Below are positions 4,856-15,471 of a stretch of DNA of 54,204 nucleotides, piece after piece. Position 1 is the first letter of the stretch; each line of letters begins with the position of its first letter. Below the pieces are notes generated by a model that saw only the letters and a list, made by a program, of their open reading frames with translations, did not search any database and was not told the origin of the DNA. This DNA is from an uncultured Burkholderiales bacterium (lineage in GTDB: Bacteria > Pseudomonadota > Gammaproteobacteria > Burkholderiales > Burkholderiaceae_C), in NCBI GenBank assembly GCA_903933115.1, contig CAIZIT010000065.1, forward strand, positions 1 to 54,204, read 5' to 3'. A program made the translations under genes and the position numbers.

Positions 4856-5368
4856 TCACAAAAACCGGTCCATCAACTTTCTACTGTGACGATCCAAAGC
4901 AGAGAGGTCTTTGATCAAAAACTGTACGCCATAGGCATCAGAGATGATGAGCGTATTGGCATTGAGCCGCTTGATGTCTTCCTCACCCTTTAAGAGCAAC
5001 TCTGTAGCCCCTCTGGTGGTTTGAACCGACCAGCGACTTGGTGTGACAAAGGAGCTGACCGCCTCAAGTTGGGTGATTTGCGGCATGAATTCTCGATTTT
5101 GAAGGCAGGTCTCTAGGCTTGCCTTTTGTGTCTCGGGCAAGCTCTCGAGCCGTTCCAACCACAACAACTCACGCCCTTCCTGACTCAAAATTGAGACCCC
5201 CTCATTGGGTGCCACAATGGGAAAAGCACGCACCGCAATCACACGCTCGTGGGTTTGCCCCCCAAAGTTCAAGTGCCAAACCCCAAAGTCATCACACCAC
5301 AGCTGAAAGTCCTCATGTGTTGGCAACACGGGTGCTTCTGGGGACATTGAATTTTCTGAGTTGCTCAT
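4856..5368 (-). CDS. Cyanophycin-associated DUF1854 family protein
   Basis: 170 residues. It belongs to the DUF1854 family, whose members in Burkholderiales sit beside cyanophycin synthetase and an ABC transporter; the family has no established biochemical function. Seen: a soluble protein with no signal peptide or membrane helix, with aromatic- and acid-rich blocks (LWCDDFGVWHLNFGG) and the C-terminal string SDAYGVQFLIKDLSALDRHS, typical of the family. It abuts the ABC transporter gene with no intervening base (transporter stop at 5369-5371, this ATG at 5366-5368), so the two are surely co-translated. An AGGGA about ten bases upstream may serve as ribosome binding site. It might be a regulatory or adaptor partner of the transporter, but that is inference. 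Confidence 0.85.
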   Translation of the reverse strand: MSNSENSMSPEAPVLPTHEDFQLWCDDFGVWHLNFGGQTHERVIAVRAFPIVAPNEGVSILSQEGRELLWLERLESLPETQKASLETCLQNREFMPQITQLEAVSSFVTPSRWSVQTTRGATELLLKGEEDIKRLNANTLIISDAYGVQFLIKDLSALDRHSRKLMDRFL

Positions 5369-7735
5369 TTAAATCATCCCTTGCTCATAAGCAGCTGGTG
5401 CACCCGTCATGGGCAAACCCAACTCGGCTTGATGGGCCTGTGCTTGATACAAACGCCAATAAGCCCCTTGTCGGCTCATCAACTCATCGTGACTGCCCTC
5501 CTCGACTTTCTCCCCCTGCTCCATCACCACCAAACGATCGGCCCGTTTGAGCGTGGAGAGCCGGTGAGCGATGGCGATGGTGGTGCGGCCTTTGACCAAG
5601 TTGTCCAGGGCTTTTTGAATTTCTTGCTCCGTCTCGGTGTCCACCGATGAGGTGGCCTCATCCATGATCAAAATCTTAGGGTTGATCAGCAAAGCCCTTG
5701 CAATCGAGATGCGCTGCCTCTCGCCGCCAGACAAGCCCTGCCCTCTCTCGCCCACCAAGGAGTCGTAACCTTGGGGCAAGCGAAGAATGAATTCATGGGC
5801 ATGGGCAGCTCTCGCAGCGGCGATGATTTCGCTTCGCGTGGCATCACTGCGCCCGTACGAGATGTTGTCAGCGATCGTGCCAAAGAACAAAAAGGGCTCT
5901 TGCAGCACCAGACCAATGTGCGCTCTGTAGTCGGCCAACATGAAGCGGCGAATATCGACCCCGTCGAGCTCCACACTGCCTTCACTCAAGTCGTAGAAAC
6001 GGCAAATCAAATTCACGAGGGTACTTTTACCCGAACCGCTTTGTCCAACCAAACCGATCATCTCGCCGGGTTTGATGGTCAAACTCAAATCCTTGATCAC
6101 CAAACGGTTGCCGTACCTGAAGGCCGCATGATGGAGTTTGATTTCCCCTTGAACGCGTTCAACTTTCACGGGCTCTGTGGGCTCAGGCACGCTTGAGACG
6201 TGGTCGAGAATTTCAAAAATCCTTTTGGTTCCAGCGGCCGCCTTTTGGGTGTGTGAGACGATACGGCTCATGGAGTCCAAACGGGTATAAAAGCGACCAA
6301 TGTAGGCCAAAAATGCAGTCAAAACACCGACGGTGACTTGGTGCTGGGCGACTTGCCAAATGCCAAAGGCCCAAACGATCAACAAACCCACCTCGGTCAT
6401 CAAAGTCACCGTGGGAGAAAACAGGGACCACAAAAAATTGATCCGGTCGTTCACCGCCAAATTGTGTTTGTTGGCCTCCTTAAAGCGAGCACTCTCGCGC
6501 CCCTCTTGAGCAAAAGCCTTCACCACTCGAATGCCTGGGATGGTATCGGCCAAAACGTTCGTGAGTTCAGACCATACACGGTCAATTTTTTCAAAACCCA
6601 ACCTCAAACGGTCCCGCACCACGTGAATGAGCCAATAAATAAAGGGCAAGGGCAACAAGGTCACCATGGCCAAATAGGGATCAATCGTGAAGAGAATGAT
6701 CGCGGTCATCACAATCATTAAAAAGTCGGTCGCAAAATCCAACAGATGCAAAGACAAAAACACACAAATGCGGTCCGTCTCACCGCCAATGCGAGTCATC
6801 AAGTCCCCTGTTCTCCTGCCGCCGAAATACTCCAAAGACAATTTCATCAAGTGATCGTAAGCACTGGTGCGCAAATCGGCCCCTATTCGCTCAGAAACCA
6901 AGGCCAAGATGTAGGTTTTGAGCCAACCCAAGGACCACGCCAAAAGGGCGGCCCCCAGTAAACCGACCAAATAGGTTGCCACTTGTTCAAACTCAATGGG
7001 CTTGCCGTTTTGAAATGGAATGAGCACCTTGTCCATCAAGGGCATGGTGAGGTAAGGCGGGACCAAAGTGGCCGCGGTCGAGGCCAAAGTGAGCAAAAAA
7101 CCAGCCAACAACCTTGATTTGTAGGGCTTTGCAAACCGCCACAACCTCAAAAGTCCCCAAGTCGAAGCGGGCGCTTCATCCACCTCACTCAAGGCCAAGG
7201 CTTGAGATGGCTCACTTTGGCCCAAGCCCACCTCGCTCAAAGGGCTCTCGCCTGAACCCAATTGGGGGGGTATAGAAGAGCCCACTGCTTCAACAATGCG
7301 CCCTTCAGCCCGCGCAATTTGCGCGAGCCGATGGGCCTCCAAGTTGCTGTTCCAAGCCGCTTGCAAGGCCACTGCTCGCACGTTGTTAGAGAGCGTGAAG
7401 CGCCATTTGGCCAGTTGTCTTTGGGCATTGACCAACTCCAGTGTGCCCACGCCAGCAAAGTCAATGTGCTCGAGCCGAGCAAGACTCTCGAGCCCATAGC
7501 TCTGAAATTGAAGATTCAAGCCCTGCAAATCCTTGACCTCCGAGGGGTTGAGCCCCTCGGGCAAGCCCCAACTCAGCAAACGCTCGCTGCTGGCCACCAA
7601 GAGGCCCTTGGTGAAACAAAGTCTGCTGTCCAAGTCAACCTCTAGGGCCGCTAAAACGTTTTCATGGGGAGACAGGCTTGCAAAGACCAAGGCTTGCCAA
7701 CCTTGGGGAAGCTCAACTTGAGAAGCAATGGGCAT
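5369..7735 (-). CDS. Cyanophycin-associated ABC transporter, fused permease and ATPase
   Basis: 788 residues, an exporter-type half-transporter. Residues 1 to about 190 form an extra N-terminal soluble region not found in ordinary MsbA-type proteins. A six-helix type-1 exporter domain follows (about 205-490), then the nucleotide-binding domain with Walker A GQSGSGKST (about 562-570), signature LSGGERQR (about 667) and Walker B ILIMDEATSS (about 686-695), then the H-loop IAHRLS. All ATPase motifs are intact. The gene is divergent from cphA' across 365 bases and directly precedes the DUF1854 gene. The family is known from cyanophycin loci, but what it moves is unknown: candidates are Asp-Arg dipeptides, arginine, or something unrelated to transport of the polymer itself. 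No periplasmic binding protein gene accompanies it, consistent with an exporter. Confidence 0.9.
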   Translation of the reverse strand: MPIASQVELPQGWQALVFASLSPHENVLAALEVDLDSRLCFTKGLLVASSERLLSWGLPEGLNPSEVKDLQGLNLQFQSYGLESLARLEHIDFAGVGTLELVNAQRQLAKWRFTLSNNVRAVALQAAWNSNLEAHRLAQIARAEGRIVEAVGSSIPPQLGSGESPLSEVGLGQSEPSQALALSEVDEAPASTWGLLRLWRFAKPYKSRLLAGFLLTLASTAATLVPPYLTMPLMDKVLIPFQNGKPIEFEQVATYLVGLLGAALLAWSLGWLKTYILALVSERIGADLRTSAYDHLMKLSLEYFGGRRTGDLMTRIGGETDRICVFLSLHLLDFATDFLMIVMTAIILFTIDPYLAMVTLLPLPFIYWLIHVVRDRLRLGFEKIDRVWSELTNVLADTIPGIRVVKAFAQEGRESARFKEANKHNLAVNDRINFLWSLFSPTVTLMTEVGLLIVWAFGIWQVAQHQVTVGVLTAFLAYIGRFYTRLDSMSRIVSHTQKAAAGTKRIFEILDHVSSVPEPTEPVKVERVQGEIKLHHAAFRYGNRLVIKDLSLTIKPGEMIGLVGQSGSGKSTLVNLICRFYDLSEGSVELDGVDIRRFMLADYRAHIGLVLQEPFLFFGTIADNISYGRSDATRSEIIAAARAAHAHEFILRLPQGYDSLVGERGQGLSGGERQRISIARALLINPKILIMDEATSSVDTETEQEIQKALDNLVKGRTTIAIAHRLSTLKRADRLVVMEQGEKVEEGSHDELMSRQGAYWRLYQAQAHQAELGLPMTGAPAAYEQGMI

Positions 7736-7772
7736 GTCAGTAGGGTTTATTTTGTGTATTGATCGATATCAA

Positions 7773-7800
7773 AAGAGACTTTTTTAAGCAAAAGTCTCTT
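7773..7800 (-). promoter_or_regulatory. Perfect 11-bp stem in the leader of the ABC/DUF1854 unit
   Basis: aagagactttt (7773-7783) pairs perfectly with aaaagtctctt (7790-7800) around a six-base loop. On the minus strand it lies about 38-66 bases before the transporter ATG and is followed by ttttgat. It may be an RNA attenuator-like hairpin or a DNA operator; the stem is AT-rich, so a strong terminator is unlikely. Confidence 0.45.
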
Positions 7801-7990
7801 GGGATGCAAAAAGGAAGGAGCGATGCGTCATGAGGTCCAAGGATCGAGTTCTTGAAAAGGCCTGCGCCTGGACAGACCAGCATTGTAACTTCGCCCCCGA
7901 GCCCAGAAAAAGCAATATTGAGCCACTTTGGAGCAAAAGCCCAAAAGTGAGACCCAATTAACGTCATAATATTCATGTTTGATATAACGC

Positions 7991-8050
7991 TCAAAGAGCC
8001 CCATTGGACGACTCATTTTTCAATGGAATTGCAGAAAAATGCCTCTTTGA
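7991..8050 (+). promoter_or_regulatory. Nested inverted repeats just upstream of cphA'
   Basis: The outer arms tcaaagag (7991-7998) and ctctttga (8043-8050) enclose the inner arms ccattg (8001-8006) and caatgg (8021-8026). Together they could fold a 60-base structure ending 50 bases before the cphA' ATG. The arms could also be an operator. Part of the right arm is repeated again as cgcctcttt at 8052-8060. Confidence 0.4.
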
Positions 8051-8100
8051 ACGCCTCTTTTTGTCCAACACCCATCTTTAGCCTAAAAAAATAACACACC

Positions 8101-10311
8101 ATGTCTCATCCCGACATTCAAATCCTACGCATGCGTTACCTCAGGGGCCCCAACATCTGGACCTACAGATCGGTCATCGAGGCTTGGGTGGACATTGGCG
8201 TGCTGGAGGATTTTCCCTCCAATTTACTCCCAGGCTTTTATGAGCGCTTGACCACTTGGTTGCCTGGTCTGATCGAGCATCGGTGTGGCATTGGAGAGCG
8301 AGGCGGCTTTTTGATGCGCCTCAAAGATGGGACATGGGCCGGTCATGTGATGGAGCACGTGGCTTTAGAGCTCCAAACGCTCTCGGGTCTCGAGACAGGC
8401 TTTGGTAAAGCACGAGAGACCAGCACACGCGGCGTTTACAAAGTCATCATTTACGCGGTTCAAAAAAATGTCGGCGAGCACAGTCTTTTGTTGGCCCAAA
8501 AATTGGTGATGGCTGCCATCAACGACACCCCCTTTGATCTTCAAGCCCACCTCGATGAATTGAAGGACACGGTTGACGAGTATTGCCTGGGCCCAAGCAC
8601 GGGATGCATTGTCGAGGCGGCCAATGAAAGAAGAATCCCCTCCATTCGCTTGACGGAGGGCAATTTGGTCCAATTGGGCTATGGCGCCAAGCAAAGAAGA
8701 ATATGGACCGCTGAGACGGACCGAACGTCGGCCATTTCTGAGAACATTTCGAGCGATAAAGACCTGACCAAACAGCTCCTCAAACACTGCGGCATCTCTG
8801 TGCCTGAAGGCCAATTGGTCAACTCAGCCGATGAGGCATGGAGAGCTGCTGAGGAGATTGGGCTGCCTGTGGTGGTCAAACCGAGTGACGCCAACAGAGG
8901 CAGAGGCGTCTCTTTAGGTCTTAAAAATGAAGCGAATGTTCGCGCCGCATTTGACATCGCCCAGCGCTACGGCACCGAGGTCTTGATCGAGCGCTATGTC
9001 CAAGGCGATGAACACAGGCTTTTGGTCGTTGGCGATAAAGTGGTGGCCGCAGCCAAAGGCGAGACAGCCTTTATCACGGGAGATGGTCAACACAGTGTTG
9101 AAGAGCTGATTGAACTCCAAATCAACTCCGACCCCAGAAGAGGCCCGACCGAAGACTACCCGCTCAACTCCGTTCGACTCAAGGACCATCCTCAAGCGGT
9201 ACTCCAAATCGAGAGCCAAGGCTTCAGCGCCACGAGTGTGCCCGAGAAAGGGGTCTCCATCATCGTTCAGCGCAATGGCAACATGAACAACGATGTCACC
9301 GATTTGATCCACCCTGAGGTGGCCGCAACGGTTTGCTTGGCCGCACGCGTGGTGGGACTGGATATTGCAGGCATTGACTTGGTCGCCCAAGACATCTCCA
9401 AGCCCTTGAACGAACAAGATGCGGCGATTGTGGAAGTCAATGCGGGACCGGGTTTGTTGATGCACCTCAAACCCCAAAATGGTCAACCCCGGCCCGTTGG
9501 CAAATCCATCATTGACCACCTCTTTGCGAACAATGAAAACGGACGCATCCCCATTGTTGGCATTTTGGGCTCCGTTCAAACCAATTTGCTGTCGCACTTG
9601 GTGGCTTGGTTTTTGCACCTCTCTGGCAAAAGAGTGGGTTTGGCATGTGAAGAGGGCCTCTACATGGACCAACGCAAGGTGGAGTCCATCGATGCTCGGG
9701 ACTTCTCCATTGGGGAGCGCTTGCTGATCAATCGAACCCTACAAGCCGCTGTTTTCCAGACCTCCCCTTGGCACATCTGCCAAGATGGTTTGCCCTATGA
9801 CCGTTGTTTGGTGGGGGTGGTGACGGACATGAAGAGAGAGGCTTGGGACTTGAGTGACCATGACATTTCCTCAGACGAAAAATTCAAAAGCGTCATGCGC
9901 ACCCAAATTGATTTGGTGCTCACCAACGGTGTGAGCGTGCTCAACGCCGAAGACCCTGCCGTCGTCGATTTGGCGCAGTACAGTGACGGGGATGTGATCT
10001 TTTACTCCACCGACCCTGACAATGAAGTGATGAAAGCACACCGTGCAGAGGGCCGCAGAAATGTCTACTTCAGAGACGGACACGTGGTCTTGGCCAGAGG
10101 CGATCAAGAGACGCTCTTGTTCCATTTGGAGTTCCCCCCCATTGCCATGCGCATCAAGCAAGATGGCTTTAATTTGTCGACCTTGCTGGCAGGTGTCGCT
10201 TGTGGATGGGCCTTGGACATTGCCCCACTTTTGATCCGTGCTGGTTTGAAAAACTTTGGACAAAAAAACACCATCTCCCCTCCCCTTGATCTCAGGACCC
10301 TTGCCTCATGA
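8101..10311 (+). CDS. cphA': CphA', short cyanophycin synthetase paralogue lacking a working Mur domain
   Basis: 736 residues against 850-900 for CphA. The N-terminal domain keeps LRGPNIW, GGFLMRLKDGT and the HxxEH motif (His82, Glu85, His86 in HVMEHVALELQ), the site known in some CphA enzymes to cut chains into primers. The ATP-grasp domain (about 205-470) is recognisable (NRGRGV, VEVNAGPG), but the loop that reads ANLSTGG in CphA is shortened to GNMNN, and the conserved Arg after EVNxxPG is Leu453. In the Mur-like part the P-loop is lost: GSVQTN at 490-495 replaces GTNGKT, so the catalytic Lys is Thr494. The ETARGG and DHLG motifs are also gone, and the Mur C-terminal domain is missing. The frame is clean, so this is a conserved protein, not a broken gene. 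The stop overlaps the cphA start by four bases (ATGA). Arg addition by this protein alone looks impossible. Confidence 0.93.
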   Translation: MSHPDIQILRMRYLRGPNIWTYRSVIEAWVDIGVLEDFPSNLLPGFYERLTTWLPGLIEHRCGIGERGGFLMRLKDGTWAGHVMEHVALELQTLSGLETGFGKARETSTRGVYKVIIYAVQKNVGEHSLLLAQKLVMAAINDTPFDLQAHLDELKDTVDEYCLGPSTGCIVEAANERRIPSIRLTEGNLVQLGYGAKQRRIWTAETDRTSAISENISSDKDLTKQLLKHCGISVPEGQLVNSADEAWRAAEEIGLPVVVKPSDANRGRGVSLGLKNEANVRAAFDIAQRYGTEVLIERYVQGDEHRLLVVGDKVVAAAKGETAFITGDGQHSVEELIELQINSDPRRGPTEDYPLNSVRLKDHPQAVLQIESQGFSATSVPEKGVSIIVQRNGNMNNDVTDLIHPEVAATVCLAARVVGLDIAGIDLVAQDISKPLNEQDAAIVEVNAGPGLLMHLKPQNGQPRPVGKSIIDHLFANNENGRIPIVGILGSVQTNLLSHLVAWFLHLSGKRVGLACEEGLYMDQRKVESIDARDFSIGERLLINRTLQAAVFQTSPWHICQDGLPYDRCLVGVVTDMKREAWDLSDHDISSDEKFKSVMRTQIDLVLTNGVSVLNAEDPAVVDLAQYSDGDVIFYSTDPDNEVMKAHRAEGRRNVYFRDGHVVLARGDQETLLFHLEFPPIAMRIKQDGFNLSTLLAGVACGWALDIAPLLIRAGLKNFGQKNTISPPLDLRTLAS

Positions 10312-12884
10312 ACGTTTCTCGCATCAGAGCCCTCAGAGGGCCCAATCTTTGGACTCGTCACACGGCCATTGAGGCCTTGGTCAAATGTGATGAACATCAA
10401 GATGATTTGAAGCTCATGCCCCATTTCGAGCAACGTCTTCGCAATCTCTTTCCTGGCATGGGCGCTCTCAGGTCCACCGAACGCGGCGCCAAAATGGGCA
10501 TTGCACATGCCCTCGAAATCGCGACCTTGCACTTACAAACCGAAGCGGGTTGTCCGGTCACCTTCTCTAGAACGAAGCAGACCTCTGAGGCACAACTCTA
10601 CCAAGTCGTGGTCGAGTACTCCGAGGAAGAAGTGGGTGTGATGGCCTTGGAATTCGCACAAAAATTATGTGCCTGTGCGCTCAATGACGAGGCCTTTGAT
10701 TTGGATACGGCGATCAAGAACCTCAGAGACCTTGATGAAGACATTCGCCTTGGCCCCTCAACGGGCTCGATCGTGGATGCCGCCGTCAACCGAGGCATCC
10801 CCTACCGACGCTTGACCCAAGGCAGCTTGGTTCAATTTGGCTGGGGTTCTAAGCAAAAAAGAATTCAGGCTGCAGAAATCGATGCCACTTCGGCCATTGC
10901 AGAGTCGATCGCTCAGGACAAAGAGCTCACCAAAAAGCTGCTCTTTGCAGCAGGTGTGCCTGTGCCCCATGGACGCCCTGTTGAGGATGTGGAGGACGCA
11001 TGGGCGGCCGCGCAAGAGATTGGACTGCCCGTGGTGATCAAACCCCAAGATGGCAACCAAGGCAAAGGGGTCACCGTCAACATCAACACCAAAGAAGAGA
11101 TCCAAGCGGCCTTTGAAAACGCCAAGCGATTCAAAGACGACATCATGGTTGAGCGCTATTTGCCAGGCAACGATTACCGTTTGCTGGTGGTTGGCGATAA
11201 ATTGGTGGCAGCGGCCAGAAGAGAGCCTCCCTTTGTCACGGGAGACGGCGTTCACACGGTCAAGGCCCTGGTCGACCAAGTCAACGCGGACCCCAAGAGG
11301 GGAGATGGACACGCGACCTCACTCACCAAAATTCGTTTTGACGAGGTCGCGATTGGTCGGCTCAAGGAGCAGGGTCTAGAGGCCGATAGCATTCCCGCCA
11401 AAGGGGTCCGGGTCATTTTGAGAAACAACGCCAACCTCTCCACAGGCGGCAGTGCCACGGATGTGACCGATGATGTTCACCCCGAGGTGGCCTCCAGGGC
11501 CATTGAGGCGGCCCAAATGGTGGGGCTCGATGTGTGTGGTGTAGACGTGGTGTGTGAGACGGTATTGCGTCCCTTGGAGGAGCAACAAGGTGGCGTGGTC
11601 GAAGTCAACGCTGCGCCAGGGCTCAGAATGCATTTGAATCCTTCCTATGGCAAGGGGCGAGACGTCGGAGAGGCCATCGTCTCTCAACTCTACCCGATGG
11701 GCGAAGATGGTCGAGTGCCCGTGATTGCCGTGACGGGCACCAACGGGAAAACCACAACGGTGCGCTTGTGTGCACATTTGTTGCGCGCCAATGGCTTAAG
11801 GGTGGGCATGACCAACACCGATGGTGTTTACGTCAATGGACGACAAATCGATGATGGCGACTGCTCGGGACCACGCTCGGCCAGAAATGTACTGATGCAC
11901 CCCGATGTGGATGCCGCGGTGTTTGAAACCGCCCGAGGCGGCATGCTCAGAGAAGGCCTGGCCTTTGACCGATGCCAAGTCGCGGTGGTGACCAACATCG
12001 GTATGGGCGACCATTTGGGCTTGAATTACATCACCACCGTTGAAGATTTGGCGGTCTTAAAGCGCGTGATCGTTCAAAACGTGGCCCCTTCAGGCATGGC
12101 CGTTTTGAATGCGGCGGACCCGATCGTTGCGGCCATGGCCTCAACTTGCCCGGGTCAGGTGACTTACTTCGCACTCGATGCGCACCATCCCGTGATCGCC
12201 ACGCACCGTGCTCAGGGCAAACGGGTGGTGTTTGTAGAGGATGACCAAATTGTGGCCATGCAAGGCAGCATGCAAGTGCGCATCCCGATGGTAGAAATTC
12301 CCTTGACCCGGCGTGGGGTGGTGAACTTTCAGATCGAAAACGCCATGGCCTCCATTGCAGCAGCTTGGGCCGTGGGGATTCCTTGGGGTGTGATTTGCAA
12401 GGGCTTGTCCACCTTTGTGAGCGACCCCACAGCGGTACCAGGGCGCTTCAACGTTTTTGAGTACAAAGGCGCAACCGTCATTGCCGACTATGGCCACAAT
12501 CCCGACGCCATCAAGGCGCTTGTGCAAGCGGTGACCAACATCCCCGCCAAGCGCAGAAGCGTGGTGATCAGTGGGGCCGGAGACCGACGGGATGAAGACA
12601 TCAAGGAGCAAACGCGCATCATTGGCAACGTCTTTGACGAGGTGATCTTGTACCAAGACGCTTGTCAACGCGGCCGCATCGATGGAGAGGTCTTGGCCCT
12701 TTTAAGAGAAGGACTCAAAGGGGCGAGCAAGACTGAAAAAGTCGATGAAATCTATGGTGAATTTTTAGCCATTGACCAAGCCATGAACAATTTAAAGCCA
12801 GGTGAGTTGTGCCTCATCTTGATCGACCAAGTGGAAGAAGCTTTAAAGCACATCATGAAAAAGGTCAATGAGATCACCAGCTGA
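10308..12884 (+). CDS. cphA: Cyanophycin synthetase CphA
   Basis: 858 residues, full length. It makes cyanophycin, a poly-Asp backbone with Arg on each side chain, from Asp, Arg and ATP in the cytoplasm. ATP-grasp domain: VVIKPQDGNQGKGV, NANLSTGG (Ser378-Gly381) and VEVNAAPGLRMH (Arg440), all intact. Mur-ligase-like domain: P-loop VTGTNGKTTT (from Val475), ETARGGMLREG, NIGMGDHLG, and the C-terminal ADYGHNPDAIKAL and GAGDRRDEDI, all intact. In the N-terminal domain, however, the primer-making HxxEH site reads HALEI (67-71), and GGFLMR is absent, so that activity is probably lost. The start overlaps the cphA' stop. A terminator-like structure follows at 12920-12970. Confidence 0.97.
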   Translation: MNVSRIRALRGPNLWTRHTAIEALVKCDEHQDDLKLMPHFEQRLRNLFPGMGALRSTERGAKMGIAHALEIATLHLQTEAGCPVTFSRTKQTSEAQLYQVVVEYSEEEVGVMALEFAQKLCACALNDEAFDLDTAIKNLRDLDEDIRLGPSTGSIVDAAVNRGIPYRRLTQGSLVQFGWGSKQKRIQAAEIDATSAIAESIAQDKELTKKLLFAAGVPVPHGRPVEDVEDAWAAAQEIGLPVVIKPQDGNQGKGVTVNINTKEEIQAAFENAKRFKDDIMVERYLPGNDYRLLVVGDKLVAAARREPPFVTGDGVHTVKALVDQVNADPKRGDGHATSLTKIRFDEVAIGRLKEQGLEADSIPAKGVRVILRNNANLSTGGSATDVTDDVHPEVASRAIEAAQMVGLDVCGVDVVCETVLRPLEEQQGGVVEVNAAPGLRMHLNPSYGKGRDVGEAIVSQLYPMGEDGRVPVIAVTGTNGKTTTVRLCAHLLRANGLRVGMTNTDGVYVNGRQIDDGDCSGPRSARNVLMHPDVDAAVFETARGGMLREGLAFDRCQVAVVTNIGMGDHLGLNYITTVEDLAVLKRVIVQNVAPSGMAVLNAADPIVAAMASTCPGQVTYFALDAHHPVIATHRAQGKRVVFVEDDQIVAMQGSMQVRIPMVEIPLTRRGVVNFQIENAMASIAAAWAVGIPWGVICKGLSTFVSDPTAVPGRFNVFEYKGATVIADYGHNPDAIKALVQAVTNIPAKRRSVVISGAGDRRDEDIKEQTRIIGNVFDEVILYQDACQRGRIDGEVLALLREGLKGASKTEKVDEIYGEFLAIDQAMNNLKPGELCLILIDQVEEALKHIMKKVNEITS

Positions 12885-12919
12885 GGGAAAAAGGAAAGAA
12901 ACCGCGGAGCCTCTACCGT

Positions 12920-12970
12920 GGTGAATTCACCTTGAGGCTCAAAGAGCCTTCTAGCGAAGGCCTCCTCTTT
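12920..12970. terminator. Hairpins between cphA and the convergent gene
   Basis: Two elements follow cphA. First is a 12-base perfect palindrome, ggtgaattcacc (12920-12931). Next is a hairpin with stem gccttc (12946-12951) and gaaggc (12956-12961) around tagc, with possible outer pairing of aaaga (12941-12945) to tcttt (12966-12970). It lies between convergent genes and may terminate the cphA transcript. Confidence 0.45.
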
Positions 12971-12991
12971 GGCGACCCCTGATCTCTTGGA

Positions 12992-13444
12992 TCAAGATTC
13001 AGCTTGGCAGACTTGTTTTTTCAGGGTGGCCAAGTAGGTGTTTGGACGAATAGGGTACTCTTTGGTCTTCCACTCCTGCTCGTCAATGGACATCACCTCC
13101 TTGCCTTTGCCAAGGGGCTTGTCAAAGTAACTGGCCGAGAGCCTCACAAAGGTGTCGTTCTTGCAGTAAAGGCGCCACCTGACCATCTCTGACTGGAAGG
13201 TGTCACCTTTGAACGTTTTGGCAGCTTTGGCGTAGTCGCTGAGCGTCCAAACGTAACGGCTCACGTGAACGGCTTTGACCGCCTCTTTGTCCCACAAATG
13301 GGTCACATCCTCATCCTTGTCGATCTCGGCCCACTCGGCCCAAGACGGTCCCACAAAGCCCAACATCACCACACTCACCAAGACAGTGAGCTTGAACTTG
13401 AGCTTGATCAAGTTGGTGTTGATGGTTTTTATCGGGGAAAACAT
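12992..13444 (-). CDS. Small exported protein resembling surface-adhesin E family
   Basis: 150 residues from the ATG at 13444; a start at 13504 would add 20 unlikely residues before the signal peptide. The N-terminus has a basic stretch and a hydrophobic core (LTVLVSVVMLGFVGPSWA), a good signal peptide with cleavage after SWA. The mature part, with EWAEIDKDEDVTHLWD, WTLSDYAKA, then a single Cys in LYCKNDTFVRLSA and a second near the end (KKQVCQAES), looks like the small beta-barrel-like surface-adhesin E family, where the two Cys may form a disulfide. Function in this group is poorly known. It is convergent with cphA and alone in its unit. Confidence 0.65.
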   Translation of the reverse strand: MFSPIKTINTNLIKLKFKLTVLVSVVMLGFVGPSWAEWAEIDKDEDVTHLWDKEAVKAVHVSRYVWTLSDYAKAAKTFKGDTFQSEMVRWRLYCKNDTFVRLSASYFDKPLGKGKEVMSIDEQEWKTKEYPIRPNTYLATLKKQVCQAES

Positions 13445-13691
13445 GGGATTCGTGGACAATCGAAAGCGATTAAAGTAAGGACCCGCCAAAGTTGAAGACC
13501 TCATCTTGGAGTTGCCTCATCAAAGGCACTGAGATTCTCAGCACTCTACCAGTTTCGACACCAAGACCCTAAAACTTTAATGCTCCTGATGAAAAAACAC
13601 ATCTCGGGGGTTTAAAAACTGCGCTCTAATATCGACTTCTTCAAACGATTGACCCCAACCTCACCCCCAACCCCAAGACCTCAACCCCATC

Positions 13692-14162
13692 ATGAGCATT
13701 TACACCCAATTGGATCAACTCCAAATCACCCTTCCCCCCGTGGCCACTCCCGCCGCTGCCTACCAGCCCTTTTGCATCAGTGGTCAGATGGTTTATCTGA
13801 GTGGGCACATTGCCAAAAAAGATGGCGCCCCTTGGGTGGGCCAACTCGGCCTCACCATGAACACGCAGGAGGGACAAAAGGCTGCTCAGTCGGTGGCCAT
13901 TGACCTCATGGGCACGCTTCAAGCCGCCTGCCAAAGTTTGGGGCGGGATTTGAATGCCGTCAAACAAATCGTCAAGCTCACCAGCTTGGTCAACTCCACA
14001 GCAGAGTTCACCCAACACCACTTGGTGACCAATGGCTGCAGTGAATTGCTGGCTCAAGTTTTTGAAAGCAAAGGGCTGCATGCAAGATCGGCCTTTGGTG
14101 TGGCCCAACTCCCCATGGGAGCTTGCGTCGAGATCGAAATGATCGCTGAATTGCTGCCTTAA
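13692..14162 (+). CDS. RidA (YjgF/YER057c/UK114) family protein
   Basis: 156 residues. RidA proteins hydrolyse reactive enamine/imine intermediates released by PLP enzymes. Seen: ISGQMVYLSGHIAKKDG near the N-terminus, and at the C-terminus ARSAFGVAQLPMGACVEIEM, where the conserved Arg and the closing Glu of the active site fall in the expected places. At 156 residues it is longer than archetypal RidA (about 128) and fits the longer Rid subgroups, whose activity is less certain. No Shine-Dalgarno sequence is visible. The exported M20 peptidase gene begins 31 bases downstream, so the two probably form an operon. Confidence 0.85.
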   Translation: MSIYTQLDQLQITLPPVATPAAAYQPFCISGQMVYLSGHIAKKDGAPWVGQLGLTMNTQEGQKAAQSVAIDLMGTLQAACQSLGRDLNAVKQIVKLTSLVNSTAEFTQHHLVTNGCSELLAQVFESKGLHARSAFGVAQLPMGACVEIEMIAELLP

Positions 14163-14193
14163 AACCATTGAACCCAACTTATTGGATCGCCCT

Positions 14194-15471
14194 ATGAAAA
14201 ATTGGATGATTGCACTCACGCTGACACTTGGCGCGCTCACCGCAGCCTCTTGGGCCTTGGGTGCAGCCCAAGAGGACTTGCTCAACACGATTGAAAAAGA
14301 GAAGTCTCCCTATTTGGACACGCTCAAGAGCTTGGTCTCTATCGAATCGGGCTCTCGTGACCGAGAGGGCTTGGACCGCATTTCAGCGCTGATCTATCAA
14401 AGGCTAGAGAGCTTGGGCGCTCAAGTCGAATTCATCGAGCCTGGAGAGGGTCTGTACAAAATGTACGACACACCCGAGCGGCCCGGTCGAATGGTCAAAG
14501 CAGAGTTCAAGGGCTCAGGCAGTAAAAAAATACTATTGATCGCGCACATGGACACCGTCTACTTGCGTGGGATGCTGGCCAAACAACCTTTTAGAATCGA
14601 TGGAGACAGGGCCTACGGCTTGGGGATTTCCGATGACAAGCAAGGCATCGCACTGATCATTCACACCCTTGAGACGCTCAAAAAGACCCACTTCTCTGGC
14701 TACGGCAAGATCACCGTTTTGATCAACGCAGATGAGGAAATCAGCTCGCCTGCAGCGCGCTCTTACTTTGCCAAGTTGGGGGCCGAGCATGATGCAACCT
14801 TCTCTTGCGAGTCCTCACAAGCCAAATCCGACCGCGTCGCCCTCACCACAGCGGGCATTGGAGCCGTGAATTTGAACATCACGGGTAAAGCCTCCCACGC
14901 GGGCTCAGCCCCAGAGCTTGGGAGAAATGCGCTCGAGGAGTTGTCCTTTCAAATCCAACAAATGAGAGACTTGTCGGACCCCAAAGAGGGCATCAAAATG
15001 AATTGGACCTTGGCCTCTGCGGGGACGAATCGAAACGTCATTCCATCGGTCGCGTTTGCCTCAGCCGATGTTCGTTTCATGACGAAAGAGGGGTTTGATG
15101 TGGTTGAGAAAAAGGTGCGTGAGCGCTTAAAAACCCAACAAATTCCTGAGGCCAAAATTGATGTGACCTTCGAGAGACGCCGCCCCCCCTTGGTGACGAG
15201 TCAGCAATCGCTCCAAATGGCCCAACATGCCAAAAAGGTGTATGCGGAAATCAACAAAGAATTGATCTTGGGTACGGTGGCCGCCGGAGGAGGAACGGAC
15301 GCGGCCTTTGCGGCCTTGAACACCGAGCACCCCGTGATCGAGAGCATGGGACTCCAAGGCTTTGGCTCCCACTCCAACGATGATGAGTACATCTTGGTGA
15401 GCTCCATTGTGCCCAGAATGTACTTGCTCTCTCGCATGATCATGGACATCTCAGAGGGCAAGGTTCACTGA
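14194..15471 (+). CDS. Exported M20-family metallopeptidase (glutamate carboxypeptidase-like)
   Basis: 425 residues. The N-terminus MKNWMIALTLTLGALTAASW is a signal peptide, placing the product in the periplasm. Two-zinc M20 motifs are visible: LLIAHMDTVY (His118, Asp120), YGLGISDDKQG (Asp147 bridging region), NADEEISSPAAR (Glu181 catalytic, Glu182 ligand), and GGGTDAAFAAL near the C-terminus. A dimerisation-type insert (TGKASHAGSAPELGRNA) lies in the middle. The family cleaves C-terminal Glu/Asp or other acyl-amino acids; carboxypeptidase G2 is the model. The ATG at 14194 was chosen over TTG at 14182. It follows the RidA gene by 31 bases. The real substrate is not known; a link with Asp-Arg metabolism of the nearby cyanophycin locus is possible but unsupported. 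Confidence 0.88.
   Translation: MKNWMIALTLTLGALTAASWALGAAQEDLLNTIEKEKSPYLDTLKSLVSIESGSRDREGLDRISALIYQRLESLGAQVEFIEPGEGLYKMYDTPERPGRMVKAEFKGSGSKKILLIAHMDTVYLRGMLAKQPFRIDGDRAYGLGISDDKQGIALIIHTLETLKKTHFSGYGKITVLINADEEISSPAARSYFAKLGAEHDATFSCESSQAKSDRVALTTAGIGAVNLNITGKASHAGSAPELGRNALEELSFQIQQMRDLSDPKEGIKMNWTLASAGTNRNVIPSVAFASADVRFMTKEGFDVVEKKVRERLKTQQIPEAKIDVTFERRRPPLVTSQQSLQMAQHAKKVYAEINKELILGTVAAGGGTDAAFAALNTEHPVIESMGLQGFGSHSNDDEYILVSSIVPRMYLLSRMIMDISEGKVH

Follow-up and report, generated by a model that had tools for sequence, protein, structure and literature searches.

Predicted division of chain cutting and polymerization between two linked cyanophycin synthetase paralogues of Burkholderiales

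A 54,204-nucleotide stretch of DNA (the window; contig CAIZIT010000065.1 of assembly GCA_903933115.1) from an uncultured Burkholderiales bacterium, whose genome comprises 2.8 Mb in 119 contigs and is 99.3% complete, carries two paralogous genes of the cyanophycin synthetase (CphA) family, whose product is a polymer for nitrogen storage, on the forward strand. The first, cphA' (8101..10311), encodes a 736-aa CphA1 paralogue with an intact N-terminal (N) domain, an altered ATP-grasp (G) domain and a degenerate Mur-ligase (M) core lacking the C-terminal Mur lobe. The second, cphA (10308..12884), encodes an 858-aa predicted polymerase in which a shortened N domain precedes an ATP-grasp domain and a complete set of Mur domains. 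A first-pass annotation of this DNA had called both open reading frames and the ATGA stop/start overlap that joins them (10308..10311, + strand, a -4 overlap), and the window sequence agrees. By Pfam, both proteins have a cyanophycin synthase N-terminal domain and an ATP-grasp domain, and Mur_ligase_M and Mur_ligase_C were recognized in CphA only. CphA' matched NCBIfam PRK14016 with 972 bits (cut-off 877) and fell below the TIGR02068 equivalog cut-off (692.6 vs 850 bits), which its partner exceeded (1003.2 bits); no other gene of this genome matched the CphA family strongly (1003 and 692 bits for the pair, 96 bits for the next match). Judged by CphA', the nearest named relative is an uncultured Burkholderiales metagenome-assembled genome (94% identity); other Burkholderiales, Comamonadaceae and Limnohabitans come next. 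An AlphaFold2 model of CphA' (mean predicted local distance difference test score 90.4) found its best fold match in the Trichodesmium enzyme TeCphA1 with ATPgammaS, primer and Asp (template modelling score 0.85). A solved structure of CphA' itself was not found, the nearest by sequence being ordinary CphA1 and the Foldseek pairs lying at 35-36% identity with the CphA' model.

In SuCphA1 of Synechocystis UTEX2470, the cutting site of the N domain is built from C59-x19-H79xxE82-H83, with H57, R70 and E87 around it (PMC9262961). The residues His60, Cys62, Phe70, Arg73, His82, Glu85, His86 and Glu90 of the window CphA' (8278..8370, + strand) align with SuCphA1 His57, Cys59, Phe67, Arg70, His79, Glu82, His83 and Glu87, and thus form a predicted endo-cyanophycinase site with a complete Cx19HxxEH motif. 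The first-pass annotation had recognized the HxxEH residues His82, Glu85 and His86 and equated Glu85 with Glu82 of the Synechocystis enzyme; the alignment supports both points and adds Cys62, which had been missed. Its reading of the equivalent CphA segment as HxxEI at residues 67-71 is likewise correct. This relic, H67-A-L-E70-I71 (10506..10520, + strand), lacks the cysteine, and the hairpin that would carry Phe67 and Arg70 is also deleted.

To place the window pair among its relatives, a whole-protein CphA' search, not based on motifs, was run on 399 genomes of the order. It returned 137 genomes with a match at E <=1e-120, 129 of which had two. The 129 fetched regions and the window gave an alignment of 130 CphA' rows, equal to 63 clusters at 70% identity, and 126 CphA rows. 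Seven of the 137 genomes were left out of the 130-row set, namely G041, G289 (single gene), G172 (partial), G383 (fragment), G287, G337 and G358; the sequences of G041, G289 and G172 were examined separately. A further 80 named loci were pulled with patterns, one of which included HxxEH, so that they provide no evidence for this motif, and some of them overlap genomes of the unnamed set.

In SuCphA1 numbering, H57, C59, F67, R70, H79, E82, H83, E87 and Y110 are invariant in all 130 aligned CphA'. Of the 161 N-domain columns, 23 are invariant in these rows, and they include every one of the seven tested endo-cyanophycinase columns (H57, C59, R70, H79, E82, H83, E87; hypergeometric 5e-7, with no correction for relatedness). 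Of the 126 aligned CphA rows, 125-126 lack the hairpin residues through deletion; H79 is retained in 112, E82 in 89 and H83 in 8. A count of the HxxEH pattern across pairs, which the first-pass annotation had proposed as a check, came out in its favor: on unaligned sequence, Cx19HxxEH occurs in 214/214 CphA' rows and in 0/203 CphA rows of pairs, repeat fetches of some genomes included. Two additional CphA-labelled matches are one unpaired gene of genome G928 fetched twice. The motif is present in 83% of CphA1 at nr70 and is therefore not strictly defining (PMC9262961). The predicted site also persists where the rest of CphA' has diverged. In four distinct genomes (L117, L167, G610, G489), the ATP/Mg residues of the CphA' ATP-grasp domain are changed and the cutting site is intact, and three diverged CphA' from outside the order (G489, G610, G710, the first two with these changes) have a complete N site. 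No alteration of the cutting site was encountered in any CphA' examined. G489 was also considered as a carrier of a solitary CphA, which was rejected, as its wider region holds the divergent CphA' with an intact site.

The Mur domain follows a different course. In the window CphA', GILGSVQTNL replaces the Mur P-loop, with GSVQTNL at the loop position itself, and the degenerate core (9559..10260, + strand) is not recognized by Pfam as a Mur domain; in CphA, the P-loop reads GTNGKTT (11736..11756, + strand) and the Mur domains are complete. The loss of P-loop and C-terminal domain described by the first-pass annotation thus holds for the window and fails as the complementary half of a family-wide split, for the Mur core and lobe, judged by ten marker residues, are intact in 9/130 CphA'. 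The same markers are kept in 13/80 named loci, and rows from Cupriavidus, Ralstonia and Achromobacter share core residues. The P-loop lysine is lost in 88/130 CphA' and kept in 42/130. When the kept/lost label was mapped on a quick FastTree, at least five changes were needed, three of them forced by the starred branches alone. With these counts, Mur loss was rejected as a complementary loss; from the sequences, it looks later, repeated and secondary. In CphA, the Arg-adding Mur site (K499, E558, D585, H586 and the C-terminal lobe) is complete in 125/126 rows, the other row being truncated. Two M-domain residues, 603 and 607 of SuCphA1, contact the polymer at the N site (PMC9262961). Their equivalents are Arg and Asp in 130/130 CphA' (Arg600 and Asp604 in the window), although invariance is rare in the M domain (8/236 columns; chance about 0.001). 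CphA' may have retained an otherwise mostly inactive Mur core because these residues touch polymer held at the N site.

The second half of the split lies in the ATP-grasp domains. As described in the accessible text of PMC9427784, H267 and R309 of SuCphA1-type enzymes stabilize the acyl-phosphate, D431 and E450 bind Mg, and Asp is bound by R323, N394 and R458, with S396 adjoining the Asp pocket. None of the Asp-recognition residues R323, S396 and R458 is found in CphA': R323 is absent from all 130 rows (Gly 124, Ser 5, Asp 1), the S396 loop is deleted in 130/130, and R458 is likewise retained in 0/130 (Leu 124; Leu453 of the window, 9457..9459, + strand). The same rows keep K261, R309, D431 and N452 in 130/130, K220 in 129/130, E450 in 128/130 and H267 in 126/130; the remaining four have Arg at position 267, the window among them (Arg266, 8896..8898, + strand). 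CphA keeps R309 and R323 in 126/126 rows and N394, S396, R458, D431, E450, K499, E558, D585, H586, R731, H748, N749 and D776 in 125/126, where the remaining row is truncated. Its Asp-adding site (K220, K261, H267, R309, R323, S396, D431, E450, R458) is thus kept in 125 or 126 of 126 rows at every position except 267, which is Gln in 124/126 (Gln251 of the window, 11058..11060, + strand). The first-pass statement that CphA keeps its ATP-grasp and Mur motifs therefore stands for the Asp and Mur residues and fails at His267, and its view that the two proteins together hold one full set of sites does not strictly hold for this pair, with Arg266 in one and Gln251 in the other. Over 203 pairs, the residues at this position in CphA'/CphA are H/Q in 182, R/Q in 16 (window included), H/H in 2, and gap/Q, L/H and R/H in 1 each. 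We also considered complementation between the half-changed ATP-grasp sites, with H267 contributed by most CphA' and the Asp residues by CphA; it is unlikely, because one such site would be built mainly from one protomer, and the window CphA' has Arg there. ATP-grasp is the best conserved domain of CphA' (median top-residue frequency 0.86 vs 0.78 for the N domain), so it probably has some role. With ATP and Mg residues kept and Asp recognition apparently lost, the domain may be a structural partner, an ATP sensor or a ligase for another substrate.

A column-by-column comparison, from which L184 (a divergent single gene) and a truncated CphA were excluded, identified 16 sites (SuCphA1 positions 1-723) that are fixed at >=95% in each clade yet differ between CphA' and CphA. 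Eleven of them belong either to the N-site hairpin or to the ATP-grasp domain (positions 267, 323, 396-399 and 458). When polarized by 18 single-gene CphA1, SuCphA1 included, positions 21, 65-67, 70 and 267 are changed in CphA, and 188, 203, 307, 323, 396-399 and 458 in CphA'; site 549 also differs between the clades, and the single genes give no clear direction for it. Positions 65-67, 70 and 396-399 are deletions, and 65/66 are not catalytic residues. Because the polarized sites fall in both paralogues, the pattern is one of reciprocal specialization and not of random decay. The division of labor proposed in the first-pass annotation is accordingly supported in part: throughout the sample, CphA' has the cutting site and CphA the polymerase sites. 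It needs correction in that its second half is found in the ATP-grasp domains and not in Mur.

Phylogenetic analysis gave a consistent picture. In a tree of 14 CphA' and 14 CphA, built without 13 divergent or repeat rows and with trait columns kept, each paralogue formed one clade (100/100), and both together with the G928 gene formed one clade (100/100) in the presence of single-gene outgroups. A quick tree of 71 rows, from which trait columns were left out, agrees with the two-clade tree. The full N set is present in 17/18 single genes (the exception is L184), with exactly 19 residues between Cys and His in 7/18. On the evidence of these trees and alignments, the pair goes back to one ancient duplication and the site losses are reciprocal, because the single-gene outgroups carry every site and the trees show one duplication.

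Genome G928, which belongs to another class, has one apparently unpaired CphA (locus L309, 6284-11782) with a complete N site, Gln267 and full Asp and Mur residues, and this gene adjoins DUF1854 and ATP-binding cassette (ABC) transporter genes. Its sequence may represent an unsplit, ancestor-like form; the genome has 8% contamination and the gene ends at a contig end. Its placement as sister to CphA (90/81) is insecure, since neither a CphA'+CphA clade without it (p 0.094) nor its grouping with CphA' (p 0.33) was rejected. Among 48 genomes of its order, relatives of the gene were found only in G928 itself. An initial impression that its hairpin was lost was rejected as a misalignment, Cx19HxxEH being complete. 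Genome G056 has, in addition to its CphA'/CphA pair, a locus (L312, about 6625-13847) with cphB and two further convergent cphA genes (x1 and x2); both of these have Gln267, and the cutting site is incomplete in each.

The two genes are closely linked. CphA' is encoded 5' of CphA on the same strand in 126/126 loci in which both genes were read (one CphA truncated), with a median gap of 32 nt, which is <=60 nt in 96/126 (gene starts assigned by script). A -4 overlap occurs in 8/126, so that the ATGA overlap was rejected as a family feature and tells little about the equal production suggested in the first-pass annotation; what is general is the tight 5'-3' linkage. In three of the remaining 4/130 loci, no CphA reading frame was found, all near a contig end, and the fourth has a broken CphA frame. 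At L075 (G011; 6009-8824), CphA is broken into two overlapping frames beside an intact CphA', which represents a pseudogene or an assembly error; this CphA was excluded from the CphA rows.

Upstream of the pair, the window encodes a divergent exporter-type ABC transporter (5369..7735, - strand; NCBIfam CphA_assoc_ABC, NF052233, 1295 bits), in which about 200 residues precede the membrane domain, and a DUF1854 protein (4856..5368, - strand; CphA_assoc_prot, NF052234). NCBIfam already labels both linked genes as cyanophycin metabolism-associated; a literature search found no paper on the DUF1854 protein by that name. The ABC gene is present in 121/129 fetched loci and DUF1854 in 118/129. Among 193 loci of both sets with >=3.5 kb upstream, some genomes counted twice, the ABC gene is upstream and divergent in 177, located elsewhere in 9 and missing in 7. 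Downstream in the window lie Adhesin_E, Rid-like and M20 peptidase genes (12992-15471), which neighbor the pair in 0/129 fetched and <=4/80 named loci.

Cyanophycinase (TIGR02069) scored above cut-off in 27 of the 399 searched genomes, which include 10 of the 130 that contributed a CphA' to the alignment. In contrast, cphB lies within about 2 kb in 11 of the 12 single-gene loci (of 18) examined with flanks, nine directly adjacent and two one gene apart, L323 having none; cphB was located here with queries from L296 and L291 and with the cyanophycinase profile search. The same 12 loci gave no strong match to the window ABC or DUF1854 gene, the ABC match in L322 reaching 74 bits. In the 99.3% complete window genome, no match at E 0.001 was found for CphB, IaaA, IadA or the AstE/AspA family, for which control searches were positive in 5, 5, 12 and 2 of 14 genomes, respectively. 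The pair, a divergent ABC transporter and a DUF1854 gene make up one cassette, usually without a recognizable cyanophycinase. According to the accessible text of PMC10206079, cyanophycinase was recognized in 2.8% of 903 beta-proteobacterial CphA1 genomes, a scarcity called unanticipated there, with unknown isozymes suggested.

We hypothesize that CphA' is a dedicated endo-cyanophycinase that makes primers in trans for CphA, so that the pair would constitute a split cyanophycin synthetase; on the sequence evidence, we assign this a probability of about 0.62. An ancient duplication of a cyanophycin synthetase would have given two copies between which the functions were divided. By analogy with SuCphA1, Cys62, His82 and His86 of CphA' would be zinc ligands and Glu85 the base, and the N domain with the two Mur-core residues would cut polymer into short segments. 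CphA would be the polymerase, its ATP-grasp domain adding Asp and its Mur domain Arg, and would depend on CphA' for primers because it has no cutting site. The two proteins most likely act together in one hetero-oligomer, with ordinary cyanophycin as the presumed product.

Priming in trans is plausible because published experiments with SuCphA1 and the Tatumella morbirosei enzyme TmCphA1 mimic the arrangement. TmCphA1 resembles CphA in lacking a cutting site, and an isolated N domain supplied in trans renders it primer-independent (PMC9262961); it was described as a single primer-dependent enzyme, whereas the site missing from CphA is present in a linked paralogue. An engineered SuCphA1 heterodimer (N-G+M+/N+G-M-) divides its sites between two protomers as CphA and CphA' do and is active with and without primer, its primer-free activity being somewhat below that with all sites in one protomer (PMC9262961). 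That heterodimer consists of laboratory mutants, whereas CphA'/CphA is natural and also changed in ATP-grasp. SuCphA1 and TeCphA1 share fold and domain order with the pair, their N-site residues are identical in CphA', and their G (except 267) and M residues are kept in CphA; they carry three sites on one protein, which are distributed here over two, with His267 replaced in CphA and Asp binding apparently lost in CphA'.

CphA2 of cyanobacteria, which polymerizes β-Asp-Arg dipeptides with one ATP-grasp site, also has a truncated M domain; its chains measured 629-642 aa in our structure and sequence searches. A CphA2-like G domain was considered for CphA', but CphA2 appears, by the length of its matches, to retain the five-residue G loop that is deleted in CphA'. 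CphA2 has a single active site (accessible text of PMC10206079), like the reduced set in CphA', but it has no N-site motif (PMC9262961), which CphA' has.

Paired genes as such are already known, as the first-pass annotation had said: neighboring cphA copies are in print for Sideroxydans, Gallionella and Accumulibacter (PMC5178258, PMC10687191), those of Sideroxydans and of a sludge Group 1 without cyanophycinase. Reciprocal site loss is not among the points made in the accessible portions of these papers, and no report of it was found by title and abstract, where subscription journals are poorly covered. The Accumulibacter copies, which may correspond to CphA'/CphA, were evenly expressed in one study (PMC10687191).

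Several observations weigh against a split synthetase of this kind. CphA has Gln at the His267 position, where Ala inactivates or weakens SuCphA1 and TeCphA1 (PMC9262961; accessible text of PMC9427784). The relic of the cutting site in CphA does not appear random, given the frequent retention of H79 and E82. The CphA' ATP-grasp domain is better conserved than the N domain, so cutting may not be the only job of the protein. As reported in the accessible parts of two reviews, no cyanophycin was detected from the Ralstonia eutropha H16 genes on overexpression in their host or on expression in E. coli (PMC8560796, citing Adames 2013) and the wild type makes none (PMC11362209); related Cupriavidus pairs carry intact sites. 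Finally, cphA expression in Accumulibacter, said to have neighboring copies, was very low in one study (accessible text of PMC12455942).

The R. eutropha result, His267Gln and the conserved but altered CphA' ATP-grasp leave room for a different product. The pair could make or trim another Asp/Arg-like oligomer, perhaps exported by the linked ABC transporter, because both ATP-grasp sites are changed, with His267Gln in 124/126 CphA and Asp binding lost in CphA'. The conserved exporter-type gene and the window genome without matches to known breakdown enzymes fit such an oligomer. Against it, CphA keeps the Asp-recognition and Mur residues (125 or 126/126), Gln267 is also present in G056 x1 and x2, of which x1 adjoins a cyanophycinase gene, and cyanophycin is reported, second hand in a review seen in part, from Bordetella species. 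Overall, we consider another product unlikely.

In a broader and somewhat less likely proposal, the cyanophycin system of beta-proteobacteria is built to another plan, with DUF1854, the ABC exporter, CphA' and CphA forming a cassette that stands in for the usual pair of cphA1 and cphB. An endo-hydrolase on its own subunit would let cutting be set apart from building. CphA' would then be both primer maker and missing depolymerase, its ATP-grasp would have acquired a new non-Asp reaction, and the transporter would move the oligomers.

Where cyanophycinase is missing, CphA' could also be the depolymerase, its cutting site being used to break polymer down either instead of priming or in addition to it. 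The contrast between 10/130 CphA' genomes with TIGR02069 and 11/12 single-gene loci with cphB, together with the suggested unknown isozymes (PMC10206079), is in line with this. Against it, the SuCphA1 N site is slow and favors (β-Asp-Arg)4 pieces, and most polymer is stable beside the active enzyme (PMC9262961); linkage to the synthetase gene in 126/126 loci suggests production together with synthesis; and paired cphA copies of Tetrasphaera, which may be CphA'/CphA, are reported to have a neighboring cphB (PMC10687191). A depolymerase role is thus improbable.

Still more doubtful is that CphA' is a second, new ligase whose ATP-grasp binds ATP, stabilizes an acyl-phosphate and joins a non-Asp nucleophile to the chain end. 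The retained ATP and Mg residues and H267 would suit such an enzyme, as would the changes of R323 to Gly (124) and R458 to Leu (124) and the deleted S396 loop (130), which would remove carboxylate binding. Against this, position 267 is Arg, Leu or missing in some CphA', four CphA' have changed ATP/Mg residues, and no substrate is known.

Least credible is that CphA' only regulates CphA or serves it as a scaffold (a role that the first-pass annotation had also entertained), without catalysis of its own: loss of the Mur P-loop lysine (88/130) and of R323 and R458 (130/130) would agree with it, but zinc ligands, base and substrate contacts are invariant in 130/130 CphA', even where ATP-grasp residues are changed.

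CphA1 has been described as a self-sufficient machine that cuts its own product, the balance of which cannot be regulated by expression, as both activities are on one protein (PMC9262961). Cutting and building appear to have come apart in the large group of bacteria to which this pair belongs. If CphA' and CphA do form a split synthetase, many synthetases without an N site would have a partner rather than being primer-dependent loners, and two paralogues may have been counted together in the published share of primer-dependent enzymes. The division could explain why such genes fail to give polymer if tested apart, and would offer a two-subunit handle for polymer production. The beta-proteobacteria would gain a known kind of cyanophycin-cutting site.

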